64,000 bases of DNA, taken from the NCBI GenBank assembly GCA_021821055.1, contig JAKACX010000006.1:1-64000 (forward strand), in the 5' to 3' direction. The stretch comes from Bacillota bacterium (lineage in GTDB: Bacteria > Bacillota > Bacilli > Alicyclobacillales > SLC66). Positions 10,491-52,815 of the stretch are shown one piece after another. The translations under genes were made by a program, and so were the position numbers. Every line of letters starts with the position of its first letter. Position 1 is the stretch's first letter. The notes under the pieces were generated by a model. That model ran no database searches. It was not told the DNA's origin and was given only the letters and a program-made list of their open reading frames with translations.

Positions 10491-11753
10491 TCATACCCAC
10501 CCGCGGAGCTCCACTGCCTCCGCCATCCTGCGGATGCCCACCATGTACGCGGCGAGCCGCATATCAATGCTTCGCGCCGTCGCCGTTTTGTAGACTGTCT
10601 CAAAAGACTTGACCATCAGATCCTCCAGACGGTTCATGACCTCGTCTTCCGTCCAGTAGTATCCTTGATTGTTCTGCACCCACTCAAAGTAAGATACTAT
10701 AACTCCCCCCGCGTTGCCAAGGACATCAGGCACCAGGAGAACGTCCCGCTCTGTCAGAATCCGCGTGGCCTCCATCGTGGTTGGGCCGTTTGCCGCCTCC
10801 ACGACGATCCTGGCGCGGACCTTGTCCGCATTGGCGAGGGTAATCTGGTTCTCGATGGCGGCCGGCACCAAAATGTCGCAATCCAGTTCGAGAAGCTCCC
10901 GATTTGTGATGGTATTCTTGAAGAGCTTCGTCACGGTGCCGAAGGAATCCCGCCGCTCCAGGAGCGAATCAATGTCGAGACCCTTGTCATCGTACAGCGC
11001 GCCGAACGCATCCGAGATGCCGACCACCCTGGCCCCTGCGTCGTGCATAAACTTGGCAAGAAAGCTGCCCGCATTGCCGAACCCCTGTACAACCACGCGA
11101 CTGCCCGCGAGGGCAATGTCCCGCACCCGCGCCGCCTCCCGAATGCAGATCGCCACGCCGCGCGCGGTGGAGGTGTCGCGTCCGAGCGATCCCCCGAGCA
11201 CCAGCGGCTTGCCGGTTATGAAGCCCGGCGAATCAAACTCGCGAATCCGGCTATACTCGTCCATCATCCACGCCATGACCTGCGAATTCGTCATCACGTC
11301 GGGGGCCGGAATGTCTTTCGAAGGTCCCACGATTTGGCTGATCGCGCGCACATAGCCGCGGGCAAGCCGCTCCTGTTCGCGAAACGACATCTCCCGCGGA
11401 TCGCAGATGACGCCGCCCTTGCCGCCGCCGTACGGCAGATTCGCGATGCCGCACTTGATGCTCATCCAGAGACTCAAAGCCTTGACCTCATGCTCTGATA
11501 CATCGGGATGAAACCGGATCCCGCCCTTTGTGGGTCCAACCGCATCGTTATGTTGGGCGCGATATCCAGTAAACACCTTCACGACCCCGTCGTCCATCCG
11601 CACGGGGATGCGGACGGTCAGAACGCGCAAAGGCTCTTTCAGGAGCTCGTACATTTCCTGGCCATAACCAAGTTTGGTGAGGGCGTCCTTGATGACTGTC
11701 TGCGTACTTGTCAACACGTTCAGATTCTCTGTCGAGGGGTCGAACTCCGACAT
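10491..11753 (-). CDS. gudB: Glutamate dehydrogenase (NAD-type, GudB/RocG family)
   Basis: Oxidatively deaminates glutamate to 2-oxoglutarate and ammonia; in Bacillus the role is catabolic. The 420 residues contain the substrate-site stretch GPTKGGIRFH, the catalytic lysine region YGGGKGGV (about 103-110), and the dinucleotide fold VVVQGFGNAG (about 211-220). Length is that of the hexameric small GDHs. I chose the ATG at 11753 (MSEF), behind AAAGGTGG; the in-frame ATG at 11774 overlaps this site. A good SigmaA-type promoter lies at 11802-11831. A glutamate synthase gene is in the same window, so synthesis and breakdown of glutamate are both encoded. The gudB versus rocG label is by convention only. 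Confidence 0.95.
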   Translation of the reverse strand: MSEFDPSTENLNVLTSTQTVIKDALTKLGYGQEMYELLKEPLRVLTVRIPVRMDDGVVKVFTGYRAQHNDAVGPTKGGIRFHPDVSEHEVKALSLWMSIKCGIANLPYGGGKGGVICDPREMSFREQERLARGYVRAISQIVGPSKDIPAPDVMTNSQVMAWMMDEYSRIREFDSPGFITGKPLVLGGSLGRDTSTARGVAICIREAARVRDIALAGSRVVVQGFGNAGSFLAKFMHDAGARVVGISDAFGALYDDKGLDIDSLLERRDSFGTVTKLFKNTITNRELLELDCDILVPAAIENQITLANADKVRARIVVEAANGPTTMEATRILTERDVLLVPDVLGNAGGVIVSYFEWVQNNQGYYWTEDEVMNRLEDLMVKSFETVYKTATARSIDMRLAAYMVGIRRMAEAVELRGWV

Positions 11754-11801
11754 TCTTCCGCCACCTTTATCCATTCCAGCGACTTATTGAACTTCAGGGA
11801 C

Positions 11802-21347: not shown

Positions 21348-21758
21348 GTGGACGGTTCCCGTTCAAGACAAACAGCGTATGACGCGTACCTGATTCTCGT
21401 GGAGTTGCCAAACGATGACTTTTTTTCGGCGGAAGGTGTCTGCACCATCGGACCCGACGGGTCGTACACCGTATACTCAGACGACTCCCGTCACAACTTT
21501 TTGCGTCAGGCCATCTTGAAACACCCTCTGGAGGAACTCCTCGACGCTGGCGCCCGGCACCGCGGAGCGCTGGTCCGGTTGGAGGATCTCGCGGAGTACC
21601 GCGAACAACGGCAACTGGCGCCAGCCGCGCCTGAGGCGTTGCTCGCGGCGATGTACAGGGAGAATCGTGTCCGCCACTACTACCTCGCGCGCTACGCCCC
21701 CGCGGAGGATTGGGCGCTCCATGGGCGCCTCGCGCCGAGCAGTCGGCTGGAAAAATAG
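21348..21758 (+). CDS. Hypothetical protein, 136 residues
   Basis: A GTG start at 21348 follows AGGGGA by seven bases, and a good promoter lies upstream. The protein is acidic with a compact N-terminal half (about 10-60, with YDAYLILVEL) and a helical C-terminal part. I recognise no domain. Its last 67 bases overlap, in the opposite direction, the end of the NlpC/P60 gene, which is unusual but possible. The promoter and ribosome site argue for a real gene. Confidence 0.65.
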   Translation: MDGSRSRQTAYDAYLILVELPNDDFFSAEGVCTIGPDGSYTVYSDDSRHNFLRQAILKHPLEELLDAGARHRGALVRLEDLAEYREQRQLAPAAPEALLAAMYRENRVRHYYLARYAPAEDWALHGRLAPSSRLEK

Positions 21759-22585
21759 GGGTCGCCGAGAGTGGAGACGACAACGCCTGTCGACGAGTTT
21801 TGCGCATCGACGAAGCGCCCGGCGCCGACATAGACGCCTACGTGGGATGCGCCGGCGGCGTAGGTTGAAAAGAACAGCAGGTCTCCGGGCTGCAGCGCCC
21901 CGACGGGCACGGCGACGCCGAAGCGGTATTGCGCAAACGACGTGCGCGGCGCCGCGACGCCAACCTTGGCGAGTACATACTGCACGAGACCGGAGCAATC
22001 GAATCCGGTTTGCGGACTGTTTCCTCCCCAGACGTACGGGTCCCCGACGGCGGCCAGGGCGCTCGCCGCGATCCGCTGGCCGATCGAGAGCGCCGCCGCA
22101 TGCGTCTGGCTCCCGCCCGGCCCGCGCACCGCTGAGTCGACTGTCGCCTGCGCCGCCGGATGGAGCGGCCGCCCGAGCCTTGGACGGCGGAACCGCGCGT
22201 GTGCAATCCAGCGCACCGTTGCGTCCGCCTCCCTGGCGGAATTGCCCCGCACCGCCGTCCTGTCTGACGCCGCGCGCGCCCGTGCGGCGGCGAGTCGCCG
22301 CACGCCGAGCTTCCGGCTCGTGCGCAGGGCGAGGCTCGTTGCGGTGCGCGCGAATTCCCGACGGAATCCGGTCAGGTCGTCCTGCAATGCGCGCGCGAGG
22401 GATGCGGTGGCCAGGGAGAACCTGGCATGAGGAAGACGTGTCCCCCTGTCTGACTTCGCGCCGTTTTCGGTTCCCGGCGCTGCGCCGCGCGCCGCGGCCG
22501 CGCCAGCCGGTCCATGTGCGGTGACCGCCAACAGAGCCAGGCAGACGCTTGCCCCAAATGAATAGAAGCGTTTCACTTCAGGCAT
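21692..22585 (-). CDS. Secreted NlpC/P60 peptidoglycan endopeptidase
   Basis: Exported cysteine peptidase likely to cut between D-Glu and a diamino acid in peptidoglycan. The 297 residues begin with a signal peptide (about 9-30, ending AHGPAGA), followed by a long arginine-rich helical region. The catalytic domain (about 175-290) has the cysteine in DCSGLVQYVL and the histidine in SHVGVYVG. I chose the ATG at 22585, behind GCAGGGGG. The gene overlaps the convergent 136-residue gene by 67 bases. Function in growth or germination cannot be separated from the sequence. Confidence 0.9.
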   Translation of the reverse strand: MPEVKRFYSFGASVCLALLAVTAHGPAGAAAARGAAPGTENGAKSDRGTRLPHARFSLATASLARALQDDLTGFRREFARTATSLALRTSRKLGVRRLAAARARAASDRTAVRGNSAREADATVRWIAHARFRRPRLGRPLHPAAQATVDSAVRGPGGSQTHAAALSIGQRIAASALAAVGDPYVWGGNSPQTGFDCSGLVQYVLAKVGVAAPRTSFAQYRFGVAVPVGALQPGDLLFFSTYAAGASHVGVYVGAGRFVDAQNSSTGVVVSTLGDPYFSSRLLGARRPWSAQSSAGA

Positions 22586-22699
22586 CGCTGCACCCCCTGC
22601 AAGAGGATGTCCAATCGCCATTTTGCGACGTCAACAACAGCATATGAAGCAATCCCGGGAAATAGACGCCAGATTGAACCGCATTTTCATGATTGGCTG

Positions 22700-22740
22700 G
22701 TGAGCGGCCGCACATGGCGGTCACACCTGCGGCCGCTCAC
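22700..22740 (-). terminator. Stem-loop over the glutamate synthase stop codon
   Basis: A 13-base perfect inverted repeat (22700-22712 with 22728-22740), with the gltB stop at 22737-22739 inside one arm. No T run follows, so it may protect the 3' end or act with a factor. Confidence 0.5.
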
Positions 22741-25700
22741 TCCGTCGCCACGTCCTGGTCCGTCTGGCCGCTCCCCGCCTTGATCATCATGAAATGATCG
22801 TCCGGCGCCTCATAAAGCGGCGCGAGCCGTTGCGCCTCCTCTTGCTGCCCGGAACGGACCAGTTCTTTCTGGTAGGCGCTGAGCAGTTCCTGCACATCGA
22901 GGATGCCACCAGTGTCCAGCCGCACGATTGACACCTTCGCGCCCTTGGCGATTCGCCGGCGGACGGCCTCGACGGTCAACCCCATTTCCGGTTGAATCCG
23001 GACGTACACGACACCGCCTGTCATGCCGGAACAGATCCAGGGCCCGGGATCGCCCAGAACGAGCGCCCGACCGCCCGTCATGTACTCGAACGCGAAGCCT
23101 TTCATGTTGGCGCGGTTGGCCACGCCGGCCCGCGCATCGTCCAGCGGCGTCGAGACCTCTCCGCCAATAATCACGTCCGCGCCCGACAGGCGGATCCCCG
23201 CCCGTGAATCGGCATTGCCCTGCACGATAAACAGGCCCCGTTGCGCCCCGTAAGCCAGGCCTTTTCCCACGCAGCCGTTGATCCGCACGCCGTGCCGATT
23301 CAGCCCGCGCAGGATGATGACCTTGCCGCCAAGGGAACCCTTGCCCACGCCGTCCTGTGCGCCGCCCTCCACGCGCAGGTGCATGCCCGTCGCGTTGTAG
23401 GCCGCGAAGCCATTGCCGACGACCGACCCACTCACGAGCTTGACCGACGCGCGGGACAATCCCTTGCGGCGTTCGCGAATCTCCTGTCGCACCACAGACC
23501 CGGACAGCATGCCGCCGATCACCCTCTCGCCGGAATGGACGCTGTCGGCGCCAAACGACAGCGTCTCGCTGCCCACCGCCATGGCGCTGACCGCCTGCTC
23601 GCCCAACTGCGCAGTGAGTGAATGGGCGCTGAGGCTGCTCGGTCGCACCGTGCGGTACATGTACCGATACGGCGCGCTCGAATGGTGGTCGATCAGGTCC
23701 CGCAGGTCCACCCGGTCCAGGCCCCTGGTCTGCCGCAGCAACTGGGATTGCCCGACCAACTCCTGCAAGGACGTCGCGCCAAGTTGGGCGACGAGCGCGC
23801 GCACTTCGCCCGCGACGCCTTCAAAGAACCGGCGCAGACTCGCGACCGCGCGCTCCAATTCACGCGGTTCAAACGCCTTGAGGCCGTGATCCTTGGCCTC
23901 GTCGCGCGTCTCGATCTGCGTGGCGATACCCACGTGGCACGTGTCAAGGTGGCAACCGCGACACCCCGTACATCCGATGGCGATCATGGACATGGTCCCA
24001 AATCCGATGCGGTTGGCGCCGAGCAGCACCATCTTCACGACATCGCGGCCGCTCTTGATGCCGCCGTCGCACCACAGTTCGACCAGATCGCGGATTCCCG
24101 CGTCCAGCAGCGCTTCGTGGGCCAGTTTTACGCCGATCTCGACCGGCAAGCCGACGTGTTTGAGCGCGTGGATTCTCGCCGCACCCGTTCCGCCGTCAAA
24201 GCCGCTGAGCGTGATGACATCGGCTCCCGCCTTGGCAATGCCGACGGCGATCGTGCCGATGCCCGGCACGACAGGCACCTTCACGCTGACCTTGGCGCGC
24301 GGATTGACCGTCTTCAACTCGTCGATCATCTGTGCCAAGTCTTCGATTGAATAGATGTCGTGGTTGTTCGATGGAGAAATCAGGTCCGTTCCCTTGCGCG
24401 CGTTACGGGCGTTTGCCACCTTGACCGAAACCTTCGACCCGGGAAGATGCCCGCCTTCCCCCGGTTTCGCGCCCTGCCCGATCTTGATCTCGAGCAGATC
24501 GGCGCTGTTGCAGAGTTCGGCGTTGACCCCGAAGCGCCCCGAGGCGATCTGGTGCCCGCGATTCTTCGCGTACCGGCCGAGCATGTCCTTGATTTCGCCG
24601 CCTTCTCCGTTGAGCGAGATCATGTCCAGTTGTTGGGCCGCCGTCGCGTACGCGCGAAATGCGGTCTCCCCTTGCGAACCGAACGACATGGAACTGATCA
24701 GGAACGGCAGCGCGTGCTCACCGACCGAAAGATCGACCTCCGCAGGCTCGACGCTGCTGTTTTCATCCACCTTCAGATCGAGGATATGGCGCAGGGAAAC
24801 CGGCTGCCTGCCTTCCAGATCATACAGCTTAGCCACAAAGTCATCGTAGCTGCCCGTCCCGGCGGCGGCGTCGCCGGCGGCTTTCCAGATACGGGGCCAA
24901 AGCTGGTACGGGCGCGCCACCGTCGCCCGCGGCGCCCGGAGCAGTTCAGCCCGTTGGCGCGCGGTGACAAGGAACGCTTCGAGTGTCGAGCCCGGCGCTC
25001 GTTCATCGAAGAACGCGCGCACTTCAAGCACGTCGGCTACGTCGCGTGAAAGTCCCACGCCCGAGAACAGGCGGTCGTAACCGCGCAGCTCGTGGATCCC
25101 AAGCGTGGAGATGACTTTTTCCAATCCCTTGGTCAGGGCCACGTACGCGTTCTCGACGCCCTTCCACTCGTCGTAGGCGTGCGCGCCTTCAAAGTACAGG
25201 TACGGGCATACCGCCTCCGCCCCGAGACCTGCCAGGACGGCGATGTCGTGCAGGTTGCGCACCGCGCCGGAACGCACGACGAGGCTGGCCAGACGCCGCG
25301 CGCTCTGACCGTCCTGACGCAGGTCGCGCAGGGTCTTGTGCGCGACGCTCACGGCAAGTGCGGGGTCGACAAACGTGCCGCCGTCGTCAAACGAGAAACG
25401 GTCGTCCAGGACAATGACCATGGCGCCACTGCGCACCGCCGCCCTCACTTCATCGCCAAGCCGCGCGAGCGCGTCCTGCAGCGTCTCGTCGGCGGTCACT
25501 CTCGGATACAGTTCCACACAGGCCGTGTCCGCCGAGTGTTGGAAGTATTCAATGACGTCCTCGAACAACTGGGTGCCAAGTTTGTGCGCGAGCGTGCGAT
25601 AACGGTCCGGCTCATCAAGCGAGTGCCCGCCGAGCAGGATCGGACTCTGCAACTCCAAATGAAGGGCGTGTTCGAGAATCGCGCCGCTCGGCGACGGACG

Positions 25701-27263
25701 GGGTCCGAGCACCACGCGCGTGGAAAAGTGTTCAATTTCTCGCTCGCGGTCGATCGCCGGATTCGTCACAACCGCGACTGTCTCCTTGAGGAAGTCCGCG
25801 ACATTCTGGCGTTGTTCTGCGAGCATGGCCAGAGGTCCGTCAAATCCGAGCGACCGGATCGGTTCGGCCCCCTTGGAAGCCTGCGCCTCCATGACGCGAA
25901 CATCCTCCACGTCCCAGCCGAAAGCGGCCATGCGCGCGTCGCGGGTTCCGTCGTGCCGGTTCGGCGTCAAATGCACCGGTCCCATCACTCGCGGTCCGCC
26001 AAACGCGATGCCCCGGCCAAATCCGGTCACCGCGTGTCTCCCCGTCATGCGCTCGTAAACGAGTTGCTGAACCTCGTCGTAGGAGCGCACGATGACCGGT
26101 TCGCCCTCGTGGAGTTCGACGTGGATTTTCTCACCGGGGGCCAGAGGCTTCGGATCGTGCATCATGTCTTGGAGCGACACGACTCCCTGCTCCGAACTGA
26201 AGACGAGGCTGGACGGCGTTTCGACCATCCAGAGCGGGCGCAGTCCGAGCGCATCCACAGCGAATACCGCCTCATCGCCTGCGCGCGAGACGATTCCCGC
26301 CGGTCCCTGCGCGAACGGGCCCCAAAGCGAGCGGATATACATATACAGATCCTGCAGTTCGGGCCGCATCTGCTTGACTTCATTCACGATGGGCGGGAAA
26401 GCGATCTCAAGCGCCTCCGCAAGGCTGTACTCGTACTGGTGCAGCAGCCCGCGCAGGAAACGGTCAAGATCCTGCGAGTCGCTCCCGCCGGGCACGACAG
26501 GGATGTCCAGCATGCGCATCTCTTCGCGCAGGCGGTGAATGGTATTGAGTTCGCCGTTGTGCCCGAGCGCCGTGAACGGCTGGACGCGTTCCGACGATGT
26601 CGTCGTATTGGTCGAATAGCGGTTGTGTCCGATCGTCAGACGGCTGCGGAATCCTTCGTGCCGGAAATCATCAAAGTACGCCTGCAGCGTTTGCGCGTCG
26701 CCCCGCACCTTGTACACTGCCGTTTTGCCAGACAGTGACGCCACGTGGATCCCGAGTTCCTCTTCAAGCGACAACAACAGGCGAAAACAGTCATTGTCCG
26801 CGCGCGACTCGCCGCCGCCCGGCGCCAACATGGCGAACTGGTGGAAGTGGACGCCTTCCGCCAGGCCGGCGTGGCCGAGCGCCTCACGATTGACCGGATC
26901 GGCCACGTGCAGGAGTGACTCGAATCCATGCGCGCGCAGCACGTCCAGCACCCGTCCGGGCAGTGCCGCCAGATCGATTTCCATCGCCTCTGTCGCGACA
27001 ATGTGCGCCACCACAAACCGCTCGGAATACGCCTGCCTGGGTTCCATCCCCGCCTTTGCCAGATGGTCAAACCACATGTCGCGCGGGAGATCGAGCAGTA
27101 TGCCCGACCCATCCCCCTCGTCCGCTACAAATCCCGCGCGGTGTTTCATCTGGTCCAATGCCGTCAGTGCACTCAGGATGTTGTCAAATGTAGGTTTCCC
27201 TGATTTCTCCACCCAAGCTACAATTCCGCAGGCATCATGCTCTTCAAATTCTAAAAATGGCAA
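22737..27263 (-). CDS. gltB: Glutamate synthase large subunit
   Basis: Makes two glutamate from glutamine and 2-oxoglutarate. The 1508 residues have the class II glutamine amidotransferase domain first: after an 11-residue leader comes the nucleophile cysteine in HDACGIVAW. A central domain leads to the FMN-binding synthase domain (about 800-1220) with GLPVEIGVKL and SGFDGGTGAA. The iron-sulfur site is CTGCRGCHLDTC, and the C-terminal beta-helix domain ends the protein. I chose the TTG at 27263, seven bases after AGGAGGT; a GTG at 27269 overlaps that site. No small-subunit gene (gltD) follows. Expression is governed by the leader at 27379-27551. Confidence 0.95.
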   Translation of the reverse strand: MPFLEFEEHDACGIVAWVEKSGKPTFDNILSALTALDQMKHRAGFVADEGDGSGILLDLPRDMWFDHLAKAGMEPRQAYSERFVVAHIVATEAMEIDLAALPGRVLDVLRAHGFESLLHVADPVNREALGHAGLAEGVHFHQFAMLAPGGGESRADNDCFRLLLSLEEELGIHVASLSGKTAVYKVRGDAQTLQAYFDDFRHEGFRSRLTIGHNRYSTNTTTSSERVQPFTALGHNGELNTIHRLREEMRMLDIPVVPGGSDSQDLDRFLRGLLHQYEYSLAEALEIAFPPIVNEVKQMRPELQDLYMYIRSLWGPFAQGPAGIVSRAGDEAVFAVDALGLRPLWMVETPSSLVFSSEQGVVSLQDMMHDPKPLAPGEKIHVELHEGEPVIVRSYDEVQQLVYERMTGRHAVTGFGRGIAFGGPRVMGPVHLTPNRHDGTRDARMAAFGWDVEDVRVMEAQASKGAEPIRSLGFDGPLAMLAEQRQNVADFLKETVAVVTNPAIDREREIEHFSTRVVLGPRPSPSGAILEHALHLELQSPILLGGHSLDEPDRYRTLAHKLGTQLFEDVIEYFQHSADTACVELYPRVTADETLQDALARLGDEVRAAVRSGAMVIVLDDRFSFDDGGTFVDPALAVSVAHKTLRDLRQDGQSARRLASLVVRSGAVRNLHDIAVLAGLGAEAVCPYLYFEGAHAYDEWKGVENAYVALTKGLEKVISTLGIHELRGYDRLFSGVGLSRDVADVLEVRAFFDERAPGSTLEAFLVTARQRAELLRAPRATVARPYQLWPRIWKAAGDAAAGTGSYDDFVAKLYDLEGRQPVSLRHILDLKVDENSSVEPAEVDLSVGEHALPFLISSMSFGSQGETAFRAYATAAQQLDMISLNGEGGEIKDMLGRYAKNRGHQIASGRFGVNAELCNSADLLEIKIGQGAKPGEGGHLPGSKVSVKVANARNARKGTDLISPSNNHDIYSIEDLAQMIDELKTVNPRAKVSVKVPVVPGIGTIAVGIAKAGADVITLSGFDGGTGAARIHALKHVGLPVEIGVKLAHEALLDAGIRDLVELWCDGGIKSGRDVVKMVLLGANRIGFGTMSMIAIGCTGCRGCHLDTCHVGIATQIETRDEAKDHGLKAFEPRELERAVASLRRFFEGVAGEVRALVAQLGATSLQELVGQSQLLRQTRGLDRVDLRDLIDHHSSAPYRYMYRTVRPSSLSAHSLTAQLGEQAVSAMAVGSETLSFGADSVHSGERVIGGMLSGSVVRQEIRERRKGLSRASVKLVSGSVVGNGFAAYNATGMHLRVEGGAQDGVGKGSLGGKVIILRGLNRHGVRINGCVGKGLAYGAQRGLFIVQGNADSRAGIRLSGADVIIGGEVSTPLDDARAGVANRANMKGFAFEYMTGGRALVLGDPGPWICSGMTGGVVYVRIQPEMGLTVEAVRRRIAKGAKVSIVRLDTGGILDVQELLSAYQKELVRSGQQEEAQRLAPLYEAPDDHFMMIKAGSGQTDQDVATE

Positions 27264-27378: not shown

Positions 27379-27418
27379 AAAAAGGCGGAGCCAATCCCCC
27401 TCAGGGAACCTCTCCGCC
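27379..27418 (-). terminator. Leader terminator of the gltB riboswitch
   Basis: GGCGGAG (27384-27390) pairs with CTCCGCC (27412-27418) around an internal hairpin, followed on the minus strand by TTTTT. It lies between the promoter and gltB, so it is an attenuator. Its 5' arm overlaps the P3 strand of the aptamer. Confidence 0.85.
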
Positions 27419-27521
27419 GAGTCTTTTGTACTCACGGTGTGGCACTTGCCCGCCAGTCCCGCTTGGTCCTGTCTTCAAGTTACATGAAGCCGGATCCCTA
27501 GGGACACTTCCTCTGTGTGTC
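27414..27521 (-). ncRNA. ykkC-family riboswitch (subtype 2, ppGpp or PRPP) upstream of gltB
   Basis: On the minus strand a small P0 stem (ACAC with GTGT) leads straight into CCTAGGGATCCGG. ACAGGACCAAGCGGGACTGG and ACACCGTGAGTACAAAAG follow, all matching what I know of ykkC consensus blocks. P3 pairs CCG.GAGT with ACTC.CGG. Because the P3 3' strand also forms the 5' arm of the terminator, ligand binding should block termination, giving an ON switch. Subtype 2 (with P0) senses ppGpp or PRPP. Association with glutamate synthase favours ppGpp, but the sequence alone does not decide. Confidence 0.8.
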
Positions 27522-27522
27522 T

Positions 27523-27551
27523 ACTATACCGACAAGTGAATAAAAATGCAA
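27523..27551 (-). promoter_or_regulatory. SigmaA-type promoter of the gltB leader
   Basis: TTGCAT (27546-27551), 17-base spacer, TATAGT (27523-27528) on the minus strand. The start near 27517 places the riboswitch at the very 5' end of the transcript. The region 27264-27610 has no gene; it is leader and promoter. Confidence 0.85.
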
Positions 27552-52591: not shown

Positions 52592-52633
52592 AAAAGAAGA
52601 CAGGGATCCGAGAGCGCTCGCTTCCCCACTTCT

Positions 52634-52762
52634 CCCTCTTTCATCCGGACTGTACCGTCGGTACTGGAATCTCACCAGTTCGTGCCCAAAGGCTCGTGGA
52701 CTCAGCTTGCGCATCACCACCGGTCGGGAATTGACGGTTTGTCTCACCCTGCCCTGAAGGAG
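52634..52762 (-). ncRNA. FMN riboswitch (RFN element)
   Basis: Conserved RFN blocks in order on the minus strand: TTCAGGGCAGGGTGAGA, CCCGACCGGTGGTGAT, AGTCCACGAGC, GAACTGGTGAGATTCCAGT and GTCCGGATGAAAGA. The family binds FMN and causes early termination when riboflavin is plentiful. It regulates ribD-ribE-ribBA-ribH and perhaps the next two genes. Confidence 0.97.
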
Positions 52763-52815
52763 TCTATAGAGTTGTCGTACGATCACAAGACCGGCGGAGC
52801 CGCCGCCTCAATCCA

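Follow-up and report, generated by a model that had tools for sequence, protein, structure and literature searches.

Subtype 2a of the ykkC RNA motif is reportedly the ppGpp riboswitch described by Sherlock, Sudarsan and Breaker in 2018. The name ykkC-III belongs to the guanidine-III riboswitch and not to a PRPP sensor. Riboswitches of subtype 2a activate BCAA and glutamate genes, and the gene contexts reported for them comprise BCAA genes, natA and glutamate synthases, which are named among the targets (PMC7266159, PMC5912903). In subtypes 2a (ppGpp) and 2b (PRPP), the guanidine marker A46 is replaced by a pyrimidine, and C75 pairs either with the guanine of ppGpp or, in PRPP aptamers, with G96 (PMC6031431). 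Position 96 is a G in >97% of PRPP aptamers, whereas ppGpp aptamers either lack it or carry A, C or U; in T. mathranii, the single change G96A is enough to give a PRPP aptamer ppGpp specificity, a swap of ~40,000-fold (PMC6031431). In a measured Clostridiales ppGpp riboswitch, ppGpp stabilises P1 (equivalent to P0 in the RNA discussed here) against the terminator, and polymerase passes (PMC10687018).

Here, we examine a stretch of 64,000 nucleotides (the window) in which an initial annotation proposed a ykkC subtype 2 RNA, likely sensing ppGpp, upstream of the glutamate synthase gene gltB. All of the parts it described are present on the minus strand and exceed chance expectation, as judged by an Rfam match, conservation and covariation. 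Comparison places the RNA in the amino-acid (2a) group, with ppGpp as the predicted ligand, and we consider it highly probable that the gltB leader contains a riboswitch of ykkC subtype 2a that turns transcription on in response to ppGpp.

The gltB locus

Read along the minus strand from 27551 to 27263, the locus consists of a promoter, the aptamer, a terminator, a leader of ~115 nt, an AGGAGG ribosome-binding site (27277-27272) and gltB. The gene (22737-27263) encodes the glutamate synthase large subunit, with PF00310, PF04898, PF01645 and PF01493 domains. The open reading frame had been opened at a TTG at 27380, which is not the true start; homologues and the position of the AGGAGG motif indicate the TTG at 27263 instead. 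There is no adjacent gltD, and the next gene on the same strand encodes an NlpC/P60 protein (21692-22621). The gudB-type dehydrogenase to which the annotation assigned the opposite reaction does exist (10491-11774), but it lies ~11 kb past the end of gltB and no link between the two was found.

Upstream of the aptamer, the annotated promoter is present as a TATAGT -10 element (27528-27523) and a weak -35-like TTGCAT (27551-27546) separated by a 17-nt spacer, an arrangement that would start transcription approximately at the beginning of P0. TTGCAT and a TATAST -10 element recur at the equivalent site in most related gltB leaders. A simple promoter and terminator scan missed both the gltB promoter and the terminator, owing to the weak -35 element and to an internal bulge in the terminator.

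A complete ykkC fold in the gltB leader

The aptamer (27517-27402, minus strand, P0 to P0) adopts the full ykkC fold, with P0, P1, P1a/b, P2 and P3. Its conserved blocks are, in order, GGAAGUG, CCUAGGGAUCC, GGACCAAGCGG, ACACCGUG, ACAAAAG and GGCGGAGAGGUUCC; the two blocks singled out by the annotation, CCTAGGGATCC and ACACCGTGAGTACAAAAG, lie at 27502-27492 and 27440-27423. The short P0 stem noted there is formed by CAG-A-GGAA (27515-27508) and UUCCCUG (27408-27402), the latter strand being shared with the terminator. P1 spans 27505-27456, pairing 27505-27501 with 27460-27456 and enclosing P1a and P1b, and is followed by the P2 hairpin GGC...GCC (27454-27441) and the P3 hairpin GAGU-ACAAAAG-ACUC (27433-27419), which is closed by a G-C pair corresponding to 81-95. 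The C at 27439 is equivalent to C75 (PMC6031431) and is invariant in the alignment of 25 sequences described below.

The covariance search suggested for the locus returned a match to the ykkC fold through RF00442, the guanidine-I model, at 36.8 bits (E 3.5e-5 in a 401-base search) over the full model length of 1-107. This score is significant for membership in the ykkC motif, whatever the subtype, and lies below the curated gathering threshold of 63, as expected of a ykkC relative that does not sense guanidine. The aptamer region fits no other Rfam family; weak matches there to Pxr, v-snoRNA and sR5 were taken as chance. At gathering cut-offs, Rfam reports nothing at the gltB leader and only an FMN riboswitch elsewhere in the window (RF00050, 96.3 bits, 52629-52765, minus strand), an ordinary one preceding riboflavin biosynthesis genes. 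A subtype-2 model, R1, scores 108.5 bits at the aptamer, its sole match in the genome, with the qualification that R1 was trained partly on this copy.

Because guanidine-I is the best Rfam match, and because the core fold and the CTAGGG and ACAC...AAAAG blocks are common to both RNAs, a guanidine-I riboswitch is the first alternative to be weighed. The marker decides against it: the C at 27461, equivalent to C49 and characteristic of subtype 2, stands where guanidine-I has A46, and this replacement excludes guanidine. Neither the gathering score nor the A46 of a guanidine-I member is found, the extended P0 ends are absent from that class, and gltB has no link to guanidine, so that this alternative is extremely improbable.

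Conservation and covariation in relatives

A search of 61 relatives with RF00442 gave ykkC matches in 41, among which three subtype-2 groups can be distinguished. Two belong to the window's own family, the relatives of Ferroacidibacillus organovorans and Sulfoacidibacillus thermotolerans (GTDB records), and precede gltB and ilvE; the third, found in the order's other family, precedes xpt. The aptamer is kept in 12 gltB leaders of the family, including the window copy, with compensatory changes in P0, P1, P2 and P3. In an alignment of 25 sequences, the ykkC pairs are kept in 91.6% of cases versus 25-45% when the structure is slid by 1-3 columns, 15 of 25 pairs have changed on both sides, and the covariation score is 0.465 versus 0.228 in shuffles, all of these figures being inflated by the relatedness of the sequences. 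The P0 pairs are kept in 100% of cells and include both-sided changes, such as CAG/CUG to UAA/UUA in L035.

These patterns bear on two further alternatives. A plain attenuator or chance structure that binds no ligand would require nothing beyond the terminator, which is enough for simple attenuation; the conserved aptamer core, the covariation and the family-wide presence make this reading very improbable. The RNA could also be a subtype-2 aptamer that binds something else, such as NDPs (as in 2c), or a variant, or it could be a decayed switch, as might be suspected from one end pair of P1, which is T-T in the window and T-A in its sisters. However, the pocket residues are intact and two other P1 pairs have changed compensatorily relative to the sister gltB leaders. 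The 2c-like aptamers of the order also differ: those at L051, L053 and L059 are linked to NUDIX hydrolases, carry GCACC and GCCCG blocks and resemble subtype 2c (NDP). We regard another ligand or decay as improbable, if less so than a ligand-free attenuator. The gltB-leader switch is genuine and well formed; both its class and its gene context have been described before, and in this lineage it is widespread upstream of gltB.

Other aptamers were seen in the same surveys. The PRPP-type aptamers of the other family (L018-L020, L022, L024, L025, L027, L031 and L034) stand upstream of xpt or of a purine/uracil permease. In Sporomusa and its relatives (L101, L104, L105, L118-L120, L125, L130, L133 and L144), an aptamer with G at position 96 precedes a short glutamine-amidotransferase-class-II protein (MCRIGAIKSK...), which is probably a split glutamate synthase subunit.

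Assignment to subtype 2a

Numbering was fixed via the xpt-linked relatives, in which G95, G96, G97, A101, A103, G104 and G105 match the published residues (PMC6031431), and the 2a consensus was derived from published papers together with our own aptamer set. For comparison, 65 amino-acid-context and 40 purine-context aptamers were drawn from the relatives, a phylum survey and an exact-pattern scan of GTDB; their class labels denote the downstream gene rather than a measured ligand, and related sequences among them are not independent. U80 and a canonical 81-95 pair occur together in 65/65 amino-acid-context aptamers (62 G-C, 3 A-U), whereas purine-context aptamers have any base at 80 and possess the pair in 5/40, the remaining 35 being mostly A-A. 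A92 is present in 54/65 of the former versus 0/40 of the latter. The window aptamer has U80, G81-C95 and A92. A position-weight classifier trained without gltB cases sorted 78/78 cases correctly in leave-one-out tests and scored the window at +27.8 bits in favour of the amino-acid (2a) over the purine (2b) class; all 27 gltB aptamers fall on the amino-acid side. Since the GTDB pattern itself fixed U80, G81, A92 and C95, the comparison was repeated without the 53 loci found by it, giving U80 in 36/36 versus 13/40, the 81-95 pair in 36/36 versus 5/40 and A92 in 25/36 versus 0/40. Without these loci, the classifier was correct in 64/64 leave-one-out cases and placed the window on the amino-acid side at +24.9 bits.

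Further features that the locus has in common with 2a are the ykkC fold with P0 ends and a four-way junction, the pyrimidine at 49 (C 27461), C75 (27439), GCGG followed by AGGUU, a terminator that shares the pocket strand, and a downstream gene for amino-acid (glutamate/BCAA) synthesis. A sister aptamer in the family precedes ilvE, a classic ppGpp target. The annotation's premise that ppGpp members are linked to amino-acid and nitrogen genes agrees with the published 2a targets, which include glutamate synthase (PMC7266159, PMC5912903).

A guanine at position 96

One residue departs from the published 2a pattern. Between P3 and GCGG, where published 2a aptamers have A, C, U or nothing, the window has a G (27418), which falls at position 96 in a gapless alignment, though the alignment is ambiguous here. 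The same position is G in 40/40 purine-context aptamers, the 95-105 segment is as long as in PRPP aptamers with equal spacing to AGG, the fold and P0 are shared with 2b, and G96 decides specificity in T. mathranii (PMC6031431). The gltB leader could accordingly be read as a PRPP (2b) riboswitch, in which pairing of the G with C75 would restore the PRPP pocket and gltB would track the supply of PRPP. Against this reading, every other class mark is of the amino-acid type: U80, a canonical 81-95 pair and A92, with ACUC at 92-95 (A92 and C95) where 2b has CCC followed by A or G, and no purine gene lies downstream. Glutamate synthase is moreover listed under 2a (PMC7266159, PMC5912903). The G also precedes other genes of amino-acid synthesis: a G separates C95 from GCGG in 23/27 gltB-linked, 3/3 ilvB-linked and 1/5 ilvH-linked aptamers, counts that owe much to the pattern scan and to species related to one another. 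In ilvE-linked aptamers, the same interval is empty or holds A, AA, GA, C or T. The G may be taken up in a wobble pair with U80, much as U80-A pairing may occur in the ilvE RNAs, and C75 would then remain free. A PRPP riboswitch on gltB is thus unlikely, and the G is probably a tolerated variation of the 2a aptamer rather than a sign of PRPP binding.

A related and similarly doubtful idea is that a natural sub-group, made up of the gltB-linked aptamers that carry G at position 96, senses PRPP, or PRPP and ppGpp. If so, nitrogen assimilation would follow nucleotide-precursor supply and the published one-base rule would need refining. The natural occurrence of this G in most gltB-linked aptamers offers a clean test of the PRPP/ppGpp one-base rule.

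Terminator and proposed switching mechanism

An intrinsic terminator (27418-27379, minus strand) follows P3 and comprises a 35-nt hairpin (27418-27384, ~-22 kcal/mol) and a UUUUU tract (27383-27379). The annotation had recognised this terminator and had its 5' arm overlapping P3; the arm instead begins at G 27418, directly downstream of P3, and shares sequence with the strand of the ligand pocket and with the P0 3' strand. A hairpin with a U tract occupies the equivalent place in 10/11 other family leaders, the scan having reported none for L048. The terminator and the P0/pocket structure are mutually exclusive. P0 is worth ~6 kcal/mol without ligand. Under a nested energy model, in which tertiary contacts are left out, the terminator state is favoured over the ligand-free aptamer state by ~17 kcal/mol, which would make OFF the default. 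An antitermination layout, as proposed, is conserved in relatives.

Comparison of sequences shows the fold, its conservation, the overlap with the terminator and the class; from characterised members of that class, we infer which ligand is bound, which way the switch acts and what purpose it serves, as follows. Without ligand, the weak P0 would lose to the strong terminator, and transcription would stop at 27379-27383. During amino-acid shortage, rising ppGpp would pair with C 27439 and hold the pocket and P0 together. The terminator would then be prevented from forming, and polymerase would read into gltB, allowing glutamate to be made. A Rel/SpoT synthetase is encoded in 16 of 18 family genomes; none was seen in the window's own genome bin, which is 74% complete, and the incompleteness of the bin is the most likely cause.

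A candidate ArgR operator and significance

Between the -35 and -10 elements of the gltB promoter lies a palindrome, TGCATTTTTATTCA (27537-27550, minus strand; TGAATAAAAATGCA on the plus strand), which agrees with the B. subtilis ARG box CATGAATAAAAATKCAAK at 16 of 18 positions. Of the 11 family gltB promoters for which upstream sequence is available, 10, the window copy included, have a similar palindrome at the equivalent position, and an ArgR gene was found in the window's genome. These observations make the palindrome a possible ArgR operator. Among the ARG-box sites that could be read in relatives, none precedes a recognisable arginine gene, and the operator is for this reason put forward as a suggestion only. 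Binding of ArgR at the palindrome would add a second input to gltB, arginine.

What makes the locus of interest is that G occurs naturally at position 96 and that ArgR may provide a second input. With this riboswitch, the glutamate synthase of an acidophilic bacterial group joins the genes that are likely under stringent control at the RNA level.
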